Assembly (NCBI GenBank): GCA_021323535.1
Contig: JAJONO010000002.1
Span: 62,001 to 126,000 of the forward strand
Origin: Bacteroidota bacterium
Lineage (GTDB): Bacteria; Bacteroidota; Bacteroidia; B-17B0; Aurantibacillaceae
DNA: 64,000 nt
Direction: 5' to 3'
The stretch's first letter is position 1. Each line of letters opens with the position of its first letter. This document shows positions 26,663 to 45,380 of this stretch, one piece after another. Under the pieces are notes generated by a model, which worked only from the letters and a program-made list of their open reading frames with translations, was not told the DNA's origin and did not search any database. The position numbers and the translations under genes were made by a program.

Positions 26663-26823
26663 CTAAACTCTTACAGCAACAATAAGCACATCCATTCGTC
26701 TGCGCTCCATCGGTCGCCAACCGCGTGTCGCTGAAGCTTTAGCGGAGGCACAAGGCTTGCCAACGGCGTAGCGGGGCAAGCTACTCTGTTTGCAATCAAA
26801 TTCTTATTCCTATAATGCAAACA
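26663..26823 (-). repeat. SpoIIE 3'-end module, locus A
   Basis: Read on the minus strand, it has an 8 bp inverted repeat TGTTTGCA / TGCAAACA (arms 26816-26823 inside the last codons and 26787-26794 just after the stop), the core AGAGTAG, a palindromic insert (GCTTGCC...GGCAAGC; CGCTAAAGCTTCAGCG), then a second degenerate copy of the gene end at 26692-26663 reading D-V-L-I-V-A-V-R-V-stop. Loci B and C have the same plan without the extra insert of about 65 bp. Confidence 0.65.
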
Positions 26824-28844
26824 TCGTCTACCTGCTCCAGGTTTCCGCGCCATTCTTCAAATTTTTTATCCAGAATTTCTTTTTGCTCTGCAGGATCTTT
26901 TTCGAAGATGTCCATTAATAAAGTTTCAAGTTGTTTATACTTAAATTTCTTTCCTTTTGGTCCTCCAAACTGGTCGGCGTAACCATCAGAAAAAACATAT
27001 AACATATCGCCTTTATTCAAATCAATGACATGATTAGTAAACGGAAGCGATTTTCCCATAAAGTAACCAATGGGACGTTTATCAGCGACATAATGGTTCA
27101 TACCAACCTCGCCGTTCTTTTTAGTGCAGATCCATAACGGATTATTTGCTCCTGCATATTCCACCTGAGAATTATCCTCGTTGAAACAAACCAGCGCCAT
27201 ATCCATCCCATCTCTTGATGCGCCAACTTCTCCGGTTTGTTTCAGTGATGACTTTACCCTGTTACGTAATTCGCCAAGTATTTCGGAAGGTTTTAAAACG
27301 CCTTGTCCGTTCACGATTTCGTTCAGGAACGCGCTTCCCAACATACTCATTAAAGCGCCAGGCACGCCATGCCCTGTACAATCCACTGCAGCAACAATTT
27401 TCTGTCCATTCTTCCTGGCGTACCAATAAAAGTCGCCGCTAATAACATCTTTGGGCTTAAAGAGAATAAATGAATCAGGAAACAGCGGGGTTTCATTTTC
27501 CATTGGAGGAAGAATTACTTCCTGGATACGTTTCGCGTAATTAATAGAGTCAGTAATATCTTTGTTTTTCTCTTCAATGATCTTTTTCTGATGAGAAATT
27601 TCTACGAGAGATTGTTTCTTTTGTTTATATCCTTTAAAAATGAAAAATAACAGCGCCGTCATTAATACAAGTCCAAAGAAGCTGACATAGATCACAAACG
27701 ATTTTTCGCGCGACTCGAGAGAACTCTTTTCAATTTCCAGATCTTTTACTTTCAGCTCGCGATCCTTCTTATCGGTCTCGTACTTTGTTTGCATATCCGC
27801 GATTTGTTTCGCGTTACTTTCTGAATGAAGAGAATCCCGCGCAACCTGGTATTTTCCAAGGTAAAAAGACGCGCTATCGGGTTTACCAAGATAGGCTGAT
27901 GTTACAATAAGATCAGCCGAAGAGGCTTTAATAAATTCAAGGCTGTTTATTTCACGTGCAAGATTGTATGATTTCAAAAAATACTGATGAGAGATCTTCC
28001 AGTCTTTAAGATGCAGGTGACTTAAGCCGAGATAATAATTGAGTTGCGACAATGATCTTGGATCGTTAAACGATAAATAGATCGGAAGTATTCTGTTATA
28101 ATAGGAAATGGCCTTCTCATGATCTTTATTCTCCGAATAGTTTTGCGCTAGGCTTATGTATGCATCCGCTATCAGAACAGAATCACCTGCAATCCTGGCA
28201 TTCTCAATGCACCTGTTCATGTAACTGAGAAATTCTGTCTGCGTGCTTTTACGATCGAGACATGAGGCAATATTAAGACAGCACGACGCGATTCCGTAAT
28301 TATCCTTGCTTTGTTCCCTGATCTTTAATGAGCGTTTAAAATAGGACAGGGCCTTTTCGTTTTCCTGTCGTTGAAAATAAACAGCACCCAGATTATTGCA
28401 GGCACGGGCAATAGCAACGCTATCACCTAGCGCTTCTGCCACATTCAGAGTTTTTATATAATTGCGGATCGCTTCCGGAAACTTTCCCTGGTAATCGTAA
28501 CAGATTCCAATGTTAGAATACGCGTCACACAATCCTTTATTGGATTCTGACGCTTCAAAAAACTTAATGGCTTCATTAAAATAAGTAATAGCCGTATCAT
28601 ACTTTCCCTCGTATAAATAACAAAGAGCGATGTAATTCTTTCCTAATCCCCTTCCCTTTGTATATTTTTTTTCACTGGATTCCTTATAAATTTTATCCGC
28701 TAAATATTTCGCCGAATCCAGGTTTGTTTTTAAATGATTACGAAAACGCTCAGCCAGTTTTGCAAAATAGATGCTGTCGTTCTGAGAGAACAATTTTCCA
28801 CCCAGGAATAACATTAGAAAAATATATTTGTGATAACAACGCAA
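26796..28844 (-). CDS. Membrane-anchored TPR-SpoIIE/PP2C phosphatase A
   Basis: About 680 residues. Signal/anchor peptide, about seven TPR repeats in the presumed periplasm (NIGICYDYQGKFPEAIRNYIKTL, NNLGAVYFQRQENEKALSYFKRSL and others), a membrane span (VIYVSFFGLVLMTALLFFIF, near residue 400), a coiled coil with DITDSINYAKRIQ, and the cytosolic SpoIIE phosphatase domain (GDFYWY, VDCTGHGVPGALMSMLG, VFSDGYADQFGG, DDVCIIGIRI). Expected to sense an external signal through the TPRs and dephosphorylate a regulatory protein. I chose the TTG at 28844 (MRCYHKYIFLMLFLGGK); TTG at 28889 is possible. Last gene of an apparent NarX-NarL-SpoIIE-SpoIIE operon. Confidence 0.88.
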   Translation of the reverse strand: MRCYHKYIFLMLFLGGKLFSQNDSIYFAKLAERFRNHLKTNLDSAKYLADKIYKESSEKKYTKGRGLGKNYIALCYLYEGKYDTAITYFNEAIKFFEASESNKGLCDAYSNIGICYDYQGKFPEAIRNYIKTLNVAEALGDSVAIARACNNLGAVYFQRQENEKALSYFKRSLKIREQSKDNYGIASCCLNIASCLDRKSTQTEFLSYMNRCIENARIAGDSVLIADAYISLAQNYSENKDHEKAISYYNRILPIYLSFNDPRSLSQLNYYLGLSHLHLKDWKISHQYFLKSYNLAREINSLEFIKASSADLIVTSAYLGKPDSASFYLGKYQVARDSLHSESNAKQIADMQTKYETDKKDRELKVKDLEIEKSSLESREKSFVIYVSFFGLVLMTALLFFIFKGYKQKKQSLVEISHQKKIIEEKNKDITDSINYAKRIQEVILPPMENETPLFPDSFILFKPKDVISGDFYWYARKNGQKIVAAVDCTGHGVPGALMSMLGSAFLNEIVNGQGVLKPSEILGELRNRVKSSLKQTGEVGASRDGMDMALVCFNEDNSQVEYAGANNPLWICTKKNGEVGMNHYVADKRPIGYFMGKSLPFTNHVIDLNKGDMLYVFSDGYADQFGGPKGKKFKYKQLETLLMDIFEKDPAEQKEILDKKFEEWRGNLEQVDDVCIIGIRI

Positions 28845-28864
28845 GATTCTCTGAGCTTTAAAGT

Positions 28865-28932
28865 TGTTTAATAGTTTAAGACAGTTCAAATAGTCTTTTG
28901 AACAATTTTAAACTTCTTTAAACAATTTTGAG
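28865..28932. repeat. TTTAAAC-rich intergenic tract
   Basis: Clustered GTTTAA, GTTCAA and TTTTAAAC units on both strands between phosphatase genes A and B. A similar tract lies at 60391-60475 upstream of the vWA gene. It is simple AT-rich sequence and its role is unknown. Confidence 0.45.
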
Positions 28933-28934
28933 AT

Positions 28935-29030
28935 CTAAACGCGAATTCCAATTATACAAACATCCCTTCGACAGTCCTCAGGGCAGGCTACTCCGTATGC
29001 TATTATATTCTTATTCCAATTACGCATACG
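28935..29030 (-). repeat. SpoIIE 3'-end module, locus B
   Basis: Minus strand: inverted repeat CGTATGC / GCATACG (arms 29024-29030 in the last codons, 28994-29000 after the stop), core GGAGTAG, a spacer with CCTGCCCTGAGGACTG, then a 30-base second copy of the gene end at 28964-28935 reading D-V-C-I-I-G-I-R-V-stop. That copy matches the coding version closely (GTTTGTATAATTGGAATTC against GTATGCGTAATTGGAATAA). Confidence 0.75.
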
Positions 29031-31168
29031 TCGTCAACCTGTTCCAGTTTTCCTTTCCAGCTTTCGAAAGTTGATTCCAATTGTATTTTCTGATCTTTCA
29101 ATTGATGTTCAATCATCAACAAAAGAATTTCTTTCATCTGCGAATATTTGAACTTCTTTCCTTTTGGTCCGCCAAACTGGTCGGCGAAACCGTCGCTGAA
29201 AATATATAAGACGTCTCCTTTATGAAGATCGATCTCATGATTGGTAAAAGGAAGAGATTTTCCCATGAAATAACCTATCGGTCGTTTATCTGCAGTATAT
29301 TGAATTACTTCCCAGCTTCCCGAACGTTTGGTAAACAACCAGAGCGGGTTATTTGCTCCGGCAAATTCAACTTTTGTATTCCCTTCGTAAAAAGAAAGAA
29401 GCGCCATATCCATTCCATCCTTCGACTCCCCTACTTCACCGGTTTGTTTTAAAGATGTTTTTACTTTGTTTCTCAACTCGCTTAAAATTTCCGAAGGCCG
29501 AACAATTCCTTTTTCATTTACAACTTCATTAAGGAAGGCGGTTCCGATCATACTCATTAAAGCACCCGGGACACCATGCCCTGTACAATCCGCCGCTGTA
29601 ATTATTTTACGATCATTCTTTTTGTTATACCAGTAAAAATCGCCGCTGATAACATCCTTCGGTTTATAAATGACAAAAGTTTCCGACAAAAAATCAGGGC
29701 TTATTTCAGGTGAGGGTAAAATCACTCCCTGTATTCTCTGTGCGTAATTAATGGAATCGGTAATATCTTTATTCTTCTCTTCAATGATTTTATTTTTCTC
29801 AGAAAGTTCAACCAGGGATTGTTTCTTTTGTTTGTATCCCCTGAAAATAAAAAAGGCCATTCCTATTACCAGAATAAATCCTCCTATGAACGCGTTACGT
29901 TGTGTTTCCTTTTGTTTTGTTTTAAGGGCCTCTTCCTTAATCTGTGAATTCTGTTCAAGTATTCTTCTATCCTTTAACTCGGTGTCGTACTTTGTTTGCA
30001 TTTCGGTCATTTGCTCCGAACGTTCCACATTGAGTACCGAATCTTTTATAGCTTCATATTTTTTTCTGTACAAAAGCGCGTTTTTAAGATCGCCTTCTCC
30101 TTCAAAATCTTTCGCAATGGCGTCGTAAAGCGTAACGCGTTCTTCCCTTAAACCATTTTTCAAAATAATGTCAAGGGCTTTAAAATGATTCTCCTTGGCG
30201 AGTTTTATATCTTTGAGTGCAAAATAATCGGCTCCGAGATTAATATATGAAGAGGCAATTCCTAACTCATCGCCAAGTGATTCTTTAATAGCCAGTGATT
30301 TTTGGTTAGCGCGAATGGCGGATTGATAATCTCCAAGGTCGTAATACACGCCACCAAGATTATTGTAACACAAACCCTGCCCCTGGGGATTTTCTATTTC
30401 GGTAAACTTACGTAACGCGTCTTCGTAATATCGTTTAGCGATAAGGTCCTTCTCGTCGAAATCGTAAATAATCCCAATGTTAAGAATTGTATTGGCCAGG
30501 CTTTTTACGTCAAGTGGATTTTTCATATTCGCTTTACGTTTCTTCATATCAAGCGCCTTATTAAAGTAGATGAGCGCTTTATCATAATCCTGAATTCCTT
30601 TATATACAAGCCCAAGGTTATTATACGCAGAAGCTGTCATGAGCGTATCTCTTATCTCTTCGGCAATGCGGGCCGACTCGAGACAGTATTTCATTGCGTT
30701 CTGAAAATCGCCGCGAATGATATAACCCTGTCCGATGTTTCCGTTGGAAGCAGCGATTCCTTTTTTCCATTTTATTTCTTTACGGAGTTCCAGCGCCTTT
30801 AAATGGAAATAGATGACCGAGTCTGGCATACCCAGAACATTATATACATTTCCAAAAGCGAATAAGACATTGCTCTCTCCTTTTTTATCTTTTATCTTTT
30901 CGGAGAGTTTAAGGGCCTGATCACCTATACGAAGAGCCTTATCCGGATCAAATGCCGTATAATTCACACAGAGGTGATAGTACGTAATAACCTTGTTGGT
31001 GTCTTCTTTTGAGTTTTTAAGTACAAGTTCCAGCGAATCAATAATGCGTTTTTTACCAACCGGAATTTTCGCTTGTGATTTTATGGTTAAAGAAAAAAGG
31101 AAAAATACACAGAAAACAATTATCTGCACATTAAAAACCTTTTTTGTATAATTATTTGATAGCCGCAA
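29003..31168 (-). CDS. Membrane-anchored TPR-SpoIIE/PP2C phosphatase B
   Basis: 721 residues. N-terminal signal/anchor (NVQIIVFCVFFLFSLTIKSQ), about eight TPRs (AYNNLGLVYKGIQDYDKALIYFNKAL, NLGGVYYDLGDYQSAIRANQKSL), a coiled coil (MTEMQTKYDTELKDRRILEQ), a membrane span (NAFIGGFILVIGMAFFIFRG, near residue 435), the DITDSINYAQRIQ linker and a SpoIIE domain with all acidic metal motifs (GDFYWY, ADCTGHGVPGALMS, FSDGFADQFGG, DDVCVIGIRI). Close paralogue of phosphatase A. The start is TTG at 31168, needed for the signal sequence. It begins 34 bp after the NarL-type regulator gene, so it is likely in the same transcript. Confidence 0.9.
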   Translation of the reverse strand: MRLSNNYTKKVFNVQIIVFCVFFLFSLTIKSQAKIPVGKKRIIDSLELVLKNSKEDTNKVITYYHLCVNYTAFDPDKALRIGDQALKLSEKIKDKKGESNVLFAFGNVYNVLGMPDSVIYFHLKALELRKEIKWKKGIAASNGNIGQGYIIRGDFQNAMKYCLESARIAEEIRDTLMTASAYNNLGLVYKGIQDYDKALIYFNKALDMKKRKANMKNPLDVKSLANTILNIGIIYDFDEKDLIAKRYYEDALRKFTEIENPQGQGLCYNNLGGVYYDLGDYQSAIRANQKSLAIKESLGDELGIASSYINLGADYFALKDIKLAKENHFKALDIILKNGLREERVTLYDAIAKDFEGEGDLKNALLYRKKYEAIKDSVLNVERSEQMTEMQTKYDTELKDRRILEQNSQIKEEALKTKQKETQRNAFIGGFILVIGMAFFIFRGYKQKKQSLVELSEKNKIIEEKNKDITDSINYAQRIQGVILPSPEISPDFLSETFVIYKPKDVISGDFYWYNKKNDRKIITAADCTGHGVPGALMSMIGTAFLNEVVNEKGIVRPSEILSELRNKVKTSLKQTGEVGESKDGMDMALLSFYEGNTKVEFAGANNPLWLFTKRSGSWEVIQYTADKRPIGYFMGKSLPFTNHEIDLHKGDVLYIFSDGFADQFGGPKGKKFKYSQMKEILLLMIEHQLKDQKIQLESTFESWKGKLEQVDDVCVIGIRI

Positions 31169-43244: not shown

Positions 43245-43338
43245 CTATAGCTTTATTCCAATAATGCAAACATTCCCTCACCTTCGTTCAGCACAGACTA
43301 CTCCGTTTGTTCAGATTCTAATTCCGATTATACAAACG
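43245..43338 (-). repeat. SpoIIE 3'-end module, locus C
   Basis: Minus strand: inverted repeat CGTTTGT / ACAAACG (arms 43332-43338 in the last codons, 43304-43310 after the stop), core GGAGTAG, a short spacer, then a 30-base second copy of the gene end at 43274-43245 reading N-V-C-I-I-G-I-K-L-stop. Confidence 0.75.
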
Positions 43339-45380
43339 TCGTCAACCTGCTCCAGCGTTCCTTTCCAGTTTTCAAAATTCTCTTCAAGTCTTTTATTTTG
43401 TTCTTCGAAAGATAAACCTGCATTATCCGCCAATAACTGATTAAGTGGTTTGTATTTGAATTTCTTTCCTTTAGGGCCTCCAAACTGGTCGGCAAATCCG
43501 TCGGTATAAAGATACAGACTGTCACCCGGAGAAGCTTCTATCGTTCTTAACGTAAATGAATCCGTCTTCTCTCCTTTTCCAACCGGCATTTTATCTTTTC
43601 CAAGTTCGATGCTGTTTCCTTTAGAAACAACTATCGGATGATTATTTGCGGCAGCATAAGTTATTTTCCGGGCTTCGTTCCCATTTGAATCTTTCGTTGT
43701 TTCTATGCAAAGTAATATGGCATCCATTCCGTCCTTTCCTCCGTCTTTTGAGATCTCATCGATCAGGCGCTGGCGGACATGATCCAGTATCTCATTTGGC
43801 TGATAGATCTTTTTTTCATTGATAGCTTCATTAAGAAATGAAATATTAAGAAGGCTCATAAATGCCCCGGGAACACCATGACCGGTGGAATCGCAGACTG
43901 CGAGGTAGAATCGTTGAATATTTAACGTTGAATGTTGAACGACAGTACTCCAGTAAAAGTCGCCACTCACAATATCTTTTGGTTTAAAGAAAACGAAATG
44001 TTCCGGAAGATGTTCTTTCAGAAATTCATCGTGTGCCAGTAAAGTATGCTGAATGCGTTTTGCATAATTGATAGAATCAATGATCTCTTTCTGCTTTTCT
44101 TCAATGATGTGATTTTTTTCTTCTACCAGATGTTTTTGTTCTTCAATAATTGTCTTTTGTTTTCGTGTTACCTGTAAGCGATTAAATACAAACACCGCGA
44201 AAACAAGAATCAATACCAATCCAAGCCCAATACCAATACTAATAACACGTTGCTTCTGCTCACGCTCACCCGCAAGTACAAGTTCCTTTTCATGTACCAC
44301 CTTATCAATCGCTGTTTGTTTTTCGTATTCAAATTTCACCTGCTCTTTTATAGCGGCACCCGCGTTCTCAATATTGTTGATGCTATCGCGCATAGAGTAA
44401 AACAACTTATGGTATTCAAGTGCATCTTTCCAGTTTCCTAAAGCAGATTCAATTTTATACAGCGAGCTTGCCTGCGATTGAATATGTGCAGGATAACCAA
44501 TTTCCTTTGCTATCGTTAGGGCCTTTAAGGCATACTTTTTTGCTTCATTGTATTTTTTTTCTTTGAGAAGAAGATCGCTTATATTTCCCCAAACAACGCA
44601 CAAGCCTCTCTGATTCTTTATTCTTTCCTGTATTTCAAGACTTTTGCGAAAATACTCCATCGCTTTTTTCAGGTCACCTTCACCTTCATACAACGTACCA
44701 ATATTATTCAATGTTAAAGCTACGCGAACAGGATCATCTGATATTTTATACATTTCAAGAGCTTTGAAATAGAAATATTTAGCCCTTTCATTTTGCATCA
44801 TTTCATCATAGGTACTACCAAGGTTCCCGTATATCTGCCCTATTCCTTTTTTGTCTCCCATTTCAATCCTGATGGTAAGACTTTTCATAAAAAATTCGAT
44901 CGCATTATTGTAGAGCTTTTGCTGAATATATATTCCTCCCAGATTATTATAAACCAGGGCGAGATTTGTTTTATTATTGATCTTTTTCTCAATTTCCAGC
45001 GACTTGTGGTAAAACTCAATCGCCTTTGGAAGATCTTCTTTATTATGCAGTTCGTAGCCTTTGTTATTATAGGCATTGGAGAGACGAACCATATAGAAAG
45101 TGTCGAGACTGGTAACAGGAACTTTTATACTTTTCAACTTTGCCTCGCATATCTTAATGATCTCATTGTTGTATAGCGGCCACTCAGTTTCATCAAGAAT
45201 TACATCAACCAGAGCAGTAAGCGCGGTACATCTGGCTGTATCACTTGGCGATGATTTAACGATCGCTTTTAATGAATCAACGTTTTGGGCTGGAAGAAAA
45301 CATGAAAAGAAAAGTAACAAAGATGTGATCATCTTTGCGGATGGCTTAATGACAAATTGCGTATGGGGATAATAACGCAT
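43311..45380 (-). CDS. Membrane-anchored TPR-SpoIIE/PP2C phosphatase C
   Basis: 689 residues. Signal sequence (MITSLLLFFSCFLPAQ, from residue 17), TPRs from about 90 to 340 (YNNLGGIYIQQKLYNNAIEFFMKSL, NNIGTLYEGEGDLKKAMEYFRKSL), a membrane span (VISIGIGLGLVLILVFAVFVF, near 380), a long coiled coil (QKTIIEEQKHLVEEKNHIIEEKQKEI) and the SpoIIE domain (GDFYWS, VCDSTGHGVPGAFMSLL, LYTDGFADQFGGPKGKKF, DDVCIIGIRI). Same architecture as phosphatases A and B but more diverged, with a 12-residue insert after GDFYWS. Stands alone between mnmE and the rRNA/tRNA methyltransferase gene. ATG start. Confidence 0.9.
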   Translation of the reverse strand: MRYYPHTQFVIKPSAKMITSLLLFFSCFLPAQNVDSLKAIVKSSPSDTARCTALTALVDVILDETEWPLYNNEIIKICEAKLKSIKVPVTSLDTFYMVRLSNAYNNKGYELHNKEDLPKAIEFYHKSLEIEKKINNKTNLALVYNNLGGIYIQQKLYNNAIEFFMKSLTIRIEMGDKKGIGQIYGNLGSTYDEMMQNERAKYFYFKALEMYKISDDPVRVALTLNNIGTLYEGEGDLKKAMEYFRKSLEIQERIKNQRGLCVVWGNISDLLLKEKKYNEAKKYALKALTIAKEIGYPAHIQSQASSLYKIESALGNWKDALEYHKLFYSMRDSINNIENAGAAIKEQVKFEYEKQTAIDKVVHEKELVLAGEREQKQRVISIGIGLGLVLILVFAVFVFNRLQVTRKQKTIIEEQKHLVEEKNHIIEEKQKEIIDSINYAKRIQHTLLAHDEFLKEHLPEHFVFFKPKDIVSGDFYWSTVVQHSTLNIQRFYLAVCDSTGHGVPGAFMSLLNISFLNEAINEKKIYQPNEILDHVRQRLIDEISKDGGKDGMDAILLCIETTKDSNGNEARKITYAAANNHPIVVSKGNSIELGKDKMPVGKGEKTDSFTLRTIEASPGDSLYLYTDGFADQFGGPKGKKFKYKPLNQLLADNAGLSFEEQNKRLEENFENWKGTLEQVDDVCIIGIRI

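Follow-up and report, generated by a model that had tools for sequence, protein, structure and literature searches.

The doubled 3′ end of a TPR-SpoIIE phosphatase gene in the window, meaning the whole 64,000-nucleotide stretch of Bacteroidota DNA analyzed here, is probably the trace of a palindromic mobile unit of 65-95 bp, which, judging from related sequences, appears to have been inserted at a fixed position close to the 3′ end of the SpoIIE-phosphatase gene. A sequence-only reading of the window had suggested a tiny element which uses SpoIIE gene ends as its target, rebuilds the end and leaves behind the former one as a repeat, and this suggestion is now supported by empty orthologous sites, by control genes which lack the tail and by an ortholog trio with a foreign upstream end. 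The proposed insertion point would lie at the pair of Asp codons in the DDVC motif. The unit itself would code for no enzyme, yet it would bring a substitute for the last ~10 codons and the stop, and by virtue of this carried end the reading frame would be repaired upon insertion. The new end would be followed by a complementary arm, forming a hairpin (H1) around the stop, by a GGAGTAG-like box and by a second hairpin (H2), and the gene's old end would be displaced downstream as a dead repeat.

The target gene examined here (gene B) occupies positions 29003..31168 of the window on the minus strand, as do all further features given below, and was identified as an open reading frame with a PF07228 match at C113:91006. 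Its last 30 nucleotides (29032-29003) recur at 28964-28935 with 20/30 identity and no indel, and the ending DVCVIGIRI-stop is repeated as DVCIIGIRV-stop, in agreement with the earlier claim of a near-repeat. The copy had been placed 68 bp past the stop; it does exist, yet it starts 38 nt after the stop, and 68 is the repeat period. The first gene end (E1, 29003..29032) would be the end which the element brought in, and the second (E2, 28935..28964) the displaced former end. The pairing across the stop, the GGAGTAG and the palindrome of the same reading were all recovered: GTATGC in the Val-Cys codons forms the left arm of H1 (29024..29029), GCATAC complements E1 across the stop codon as its right arm (28995..29000), and these are followed by the conserved GGAGTAG box (28988..28994) and by H2, the palindrome CCCTGAGGACTGTCGAAGGG (28964..28983). 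E1, the right arm of H1, the box and H2 together would constitute an inserted unit of 68 bp (28965..29032), as delimited by the repeat period and by the empty sites of relatives. The gene B locus has no close ortholog, and hence its own empty state was not seen.

Three copies had been counted in the window, and the other two are indeed present, behind the genes whose ends lie at 26796 and 43311. The SpoIIE gene next to gene B (26796-28889; C113:88799) carries the second copy of the layout, with E1 at 26796..26825 and, behind an enlarged H2, a degraded E2 (DVLIVAVRV-stop) at 26663..26692. The region 26663-26795 contains this strongly enlarged H2 with extra nested palindromes of the GCCTCCGCTAAAGC type. 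In the third copy, that of the SpoIIE gene 43311-45380 (C113:105314), E1 lies at 43311..43340, the right arm of H1 (ACAAAC, which pairs with the gene's own GTTTGT), the box and H2 at 43275..43310, and E2 (NVCIIGIKL-stop) at 43245..43274.

Recurrence of this arrangement, and its specificity for one gene family, are established in the genome from which the window derives (G000; 5.3 Mb, 141 contigs, 94 SpoIIE (PF07228) matches). The 3′ regions of the SpoIIE matches were read (93 ends), and the clear layout was found behind 11 of the 93, three of them in the window, in the order of gene end E1 with stop, E1-complementary arm (H1 around the stop), GGAGTAG-like box, H2, and E2 with stop; at C72:4055 two units stand in tandem. 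A pattern of the core box and hairpin, GGAGTAGCYTGCYCTGAGCG, allowing up to 3 mismatches, has 7 matches in this genome, every one behind SpoIIE genes. Nor is the rate of such tails equal at unrelated genes: the final 30 nt are repeated at no less than 20/30 in 9/89 SpoIIE genes vs 0/143 other long open reading frames of the same genome, which, together with the SpoIIE-only core pattern, excludes chance as the source of the tails. Many of the SpoIIE matches are TPR-SpoIIE genes in tandem clusters, e.g. C25:31970-43262.

The fold is likewise established through compensatory changes. H1 is formed by the Val-Cys codons of the gene end and the post-stop arm, and includes tandem G-A mismatches plus two additional pairs; in H2, CCCU pairs with AGGG. 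Among 10 elements, both-side changes occur in 7/14 pairs, which none of 500 shuffles equalled; among 57 aligned matches they occur in 10/14 pairs (again 0/500 shuffles), in an alignment which was fitted to the model and is biased towards it. The post-stop arm fits its own gene better than others of the same genome (6.65 vs 5.49, sd 0.13; best of 2000 permutations, 5.87), and the sequence of the H1 arm follows the codons of the gene (GTATGC, GTGTGC), which argues against a fixed triplet, like the conserved GTT cleavage triplet of integron attC-like sites, beyond the Val codon.

A covariance model yielded 80 matches, in 14/40 genomes of the genus; it also had matches in two more genera of the same family and in another family of the class. 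Nearly all the matches lie at the stop codon of SpoIIE genes. The box and H2 vary by lineage, being GGAGTAGC-TGCCCTGAGC in G000, GAGTCAGTTTATCCTGAGC in G006, G007, G012, G027, G034 and G043, and GGAGGAGATCCCGAC-GTCGGGAT in G039, and the tag beside the palindrome is GTAG in G000 and GAGTCAG or GGAGGAG in relatives. Tandem arrays of the unit, repeating about every 70 bp, stand at several loci; their leading ends are the same, and the last one has diverged. One of the carriers, G001, is a single-contig assembly of 4.6 Mb, which makes an assembly artefact unlikely. Hairpins resembling H2 elsewhere were considered as further targets and rejected, since the box and gene-end arrangement are absent there; such stray hairpins imply that H2 is a member of a common dispersed palindrome type. 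The palindrome type CATCCTGAGCG-AGTCGAAGGA (L237-L254) is dispersed in these genomes between unrelated genes, without a gene-end repeat, and no flanking transposase was identified for it. A search of IMG/VR for viral carriage gave no exact match to the core.

Comparison of orthologous loci, which the sequence-only reading had recommended, established empty sites, relative to which the occupied loci contain 67, 95 and 94 additional bases; in these pairs the downstream flank continues from E2. In G043:C178 vs G027:C12, 165/170 upstream coding bases are equal, and the occupied G043 allele is longer by 67 bases. Its E1 and the empty end disagree at 8/30 positions (5/170 upstream), mostly in the 3′ half (GTAAGACTATAA vs GTTCGTTTGTAA), and its E2 reads CTTTCGTTTATAA, keeps the distinctive 3′ codons of the empty allele and joins a flank like that of G027:C12 directly (81/88). 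The ortholog in G006 is a two-unit array, whose last end again reads GTTCGTTTATAA. From the end patterns of this trio it follows that the downstream E2 is ancestral and E1 foreign. So clear a foreign E1 occurs in one ortholog trio only: in G043:C71 vs G027:C1 (+95 bases; flank 86/90) both ends are 28/30, too alike to tell old from new, in G043:C58 vs G007:C20 (+94 bases) the origin of E1 is not readable, and in G043:C152, where the flank does not align, E1 has an ancestral look (27/30) and E2 a degraded one.

Arm pairing, codon agreement and the NTA-stop ends favour E1 as the incoming end. At loci with unequal E1 and E2, the longer pairing of the post-stop arm is with E1 26 times and with E2 twice. 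Agreement of synonymous codons among carriers does not exceed background at Val(-11) (0.30), and reaches 0.71 at Asp(-10), 0.77 at Asp(-9) and 0.97 at Val(-8); at codons -3 to -1 it is 0.76-0.89 (0.88-0.89 at -3 and -2), vs ~0.4 in non-carriers. The onset of codon homogenisation at the Asp pair of DDVC suggests that the left border is fixed. NTA-stop ends, a feature picked post hoc, are found in 26/33 E1, 16/31 E2 and 5/15 empty (non-carrier) genes (E1 vs non-carriers, p=0.004), and discordant E1/E2 pairs divide 10:1 for the same post hoc feature. The diverged E2s appear to behave as expected of former coding ends; E2 retains its stop in 11/11 cases in G000, and the differences are mostly at third positions. 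At many loci E1 equals E2, unusual endings included (G043:C39, G003:C36, G006:C12), and E2 is closer to its own E1 than to other E1s, a likeness not expected if the end were purely carried. Both E1 and E2 are thus the gene's own end at several loci, which indicates that local duplication or homogenisation also occurs.

In the preferred mechanism, the unit would move between paralogs by means of a recombinase which acts in trans and reads the folded strand, and the tandem arrays and exact E1/E2 copies would be secondary, arising through slippage or repeat recombination. At 65-95 bp the unit has no open reading frame beyond the gene end, and thus no site-specific recombinase of its own. A mobilising enzyme was not found in the families searched, namely Y1 transposases and reverse transcriptases. 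Mobilisation by RAYT/Y1 was rejected, as H2 flanks none of the 30 Y1 loci examined, and PF01797 (Y1 transposase) has no match in the complete genome of the carrier G006, which has 9 unit matches. Mobilisation by a reverse transcriptase (DGR, group II intron) was rejected as well, as PF00078 is without a match in the carriers G000, G006, G043 and G027.

The main rival, a possible but rather doubtful one, is homology-driven copying, whereby an existing E1-H1-H2-E2 block spread from paralog to paralog by ordinary recombination or template switching. The conserved coding end would then provide the left homology and E2 the right, and a dedicated enzyme would be unnecessary. This would suit a target which is always a SpoIIE end, the homology of E1 and E2 and their likeness within a locus, as well as the absence of Y1 transposase from G006 and of reverse transcriptase from G000, G006, G043 and G027. 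Yet the upstream bases of paralogs are only ~70% alike, and homogenisation ends sharply between Val(-11) and Asp(-10), with no variable fading tract, although a short conserved run could place crossovers there.

The foreign E1 of the G043/G006/G027 trio speaks against another reading, which appears unlikely, in which each locus duplicated its own end in place, the intervening hairpins formed or were inserted locally, and no end came from elsewhere; hairpin-primed template switching or a ~29 bp target-site duplication would be possible routes. In its favour are the loci where E1 and E2 are exact copies with an unusual ending, the tandem arrays of regular period and an H1 arm which tracks the local gene, whereas, besides the trio, the greater likeness of carrier ends compared to non-carrier ends, the conservation of the box and H2 core at many loci and the resemblance of diverged E2s to separately evolved coding ends speak against it. 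The covarying hairpins and the stop codons kept in E2 could also reflect a structured RNA at the mRNA end, kept for a function in stability, termination or translation control, with E2 as part of the fold or as a used alternative end; this seems highly improbable, given that empty orthologs are intact genes, that most SpoIIE genes are without the unit and that many E2s have decayed. In-frame readthrough or bypass into E2 was also considered and rejected, the period modulo 3 being spread over 0, 1 and 2, so that E2 is not an in-frame extension.

For integrative elements such as phages, ICEs and genomic islands, the 3′ end of a tRNA, tmRNA or protein gene serves as insertion site and is restored. 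The mobile unit proposed here would share with them the insertion at a gene 3′ end, the restoration of that end from the element and the old end as a direct repeat, and it also exists as occupied and empty alleles (67, 94 and 95 bp). It differs in its size of 65-95 bp, in having no integrase and in occupying many paralogs of one protein family, and for the unit site-specific recombination is presumed; the supply of the end by the element is clear in one trio and tied or contrary in others. The REP/REPIN elements, which are mobilised by RAYT (TnpA-REP), are tiny, hairpin-forming and non-autonomous (PMC3733652, PMC6006769, PMC3116915). The unit is similar to these in its small size, its hairpins and, in G000, the GTAG tetranucleotide beside the palindrome, yet REPs are mostly intergenic and without a gene end, which the unit carries, and relatives have GAGTCAG or GGAGGAG as the tag, the Y1 loci examined are without H2 and G006 is without Y1. 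Rickettsia palindromic elements are short palindromic units within coding sequence, in which the genes stay readable (PMC10969869); they put an internal segment, in frame, into unrelated genes, whereas the SpoIIE unit would replace the terminus of one family. Two subterminal hairpins, a fixed target and no obvious target duplication are shared with non-autonomous derivatives of the IS200/IS605 type, but a cognate transposase was not found for the unit, and nothing in sequence or experiment ties it to them. The terminal inverted repeats and short target-site duplication of a classical MITE are absent from the unit, in which the inverted repeat is internal (E1 and the post-stop arm) and the gene end serves as the border repeat.

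The literature was searched for the palindrome sequence as well as for miniature elements restoring a 3′ end, and no matching description was found. Quite tentatively, the unit could represent an undescribed class of miniature elements, which tracks one expanding paralogous family by means of a carried copy of its target terminus; the fold (H1 and H2) might then be the recognition structure for a putative single-strand recombinase, such that insertion would always restore the frame. To our knowledge, elements which repair the invaded gene are known at the kilobase scale and with an integrase of their own. If the proposal is true, a unit of ~68 bp which performs end repair across ~90 paralogs would rank with the smallest known mobile elements, and it would rewrite the ends of signalling proteins. 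The unit offers a compact natural set of target, carried end and hairpins for hunting the responsible enzyme.

Several variants of the arrangement were also observed. A long form of the unit (~95 bp; L168, L172, L175 and L176) contains a second inverted half-hairpin nested in H2, AGTTTATCCTGAGC-CTTTCGACTTC-GCTCAAGATAAACT. One E1-H1-H2-E2 block in G000 (L180; G000:C1:20056-20167) is an orphan, with no SpoIIE gene upstream; it is probably the relic of a lost gene, and possibly an insertion outside the usual target. The tandem arrays at L185 and L189 (G039), L191 (G007), L202 (G006) and L294 (G061) exhibit a polarity like that of CRISPR arrays.
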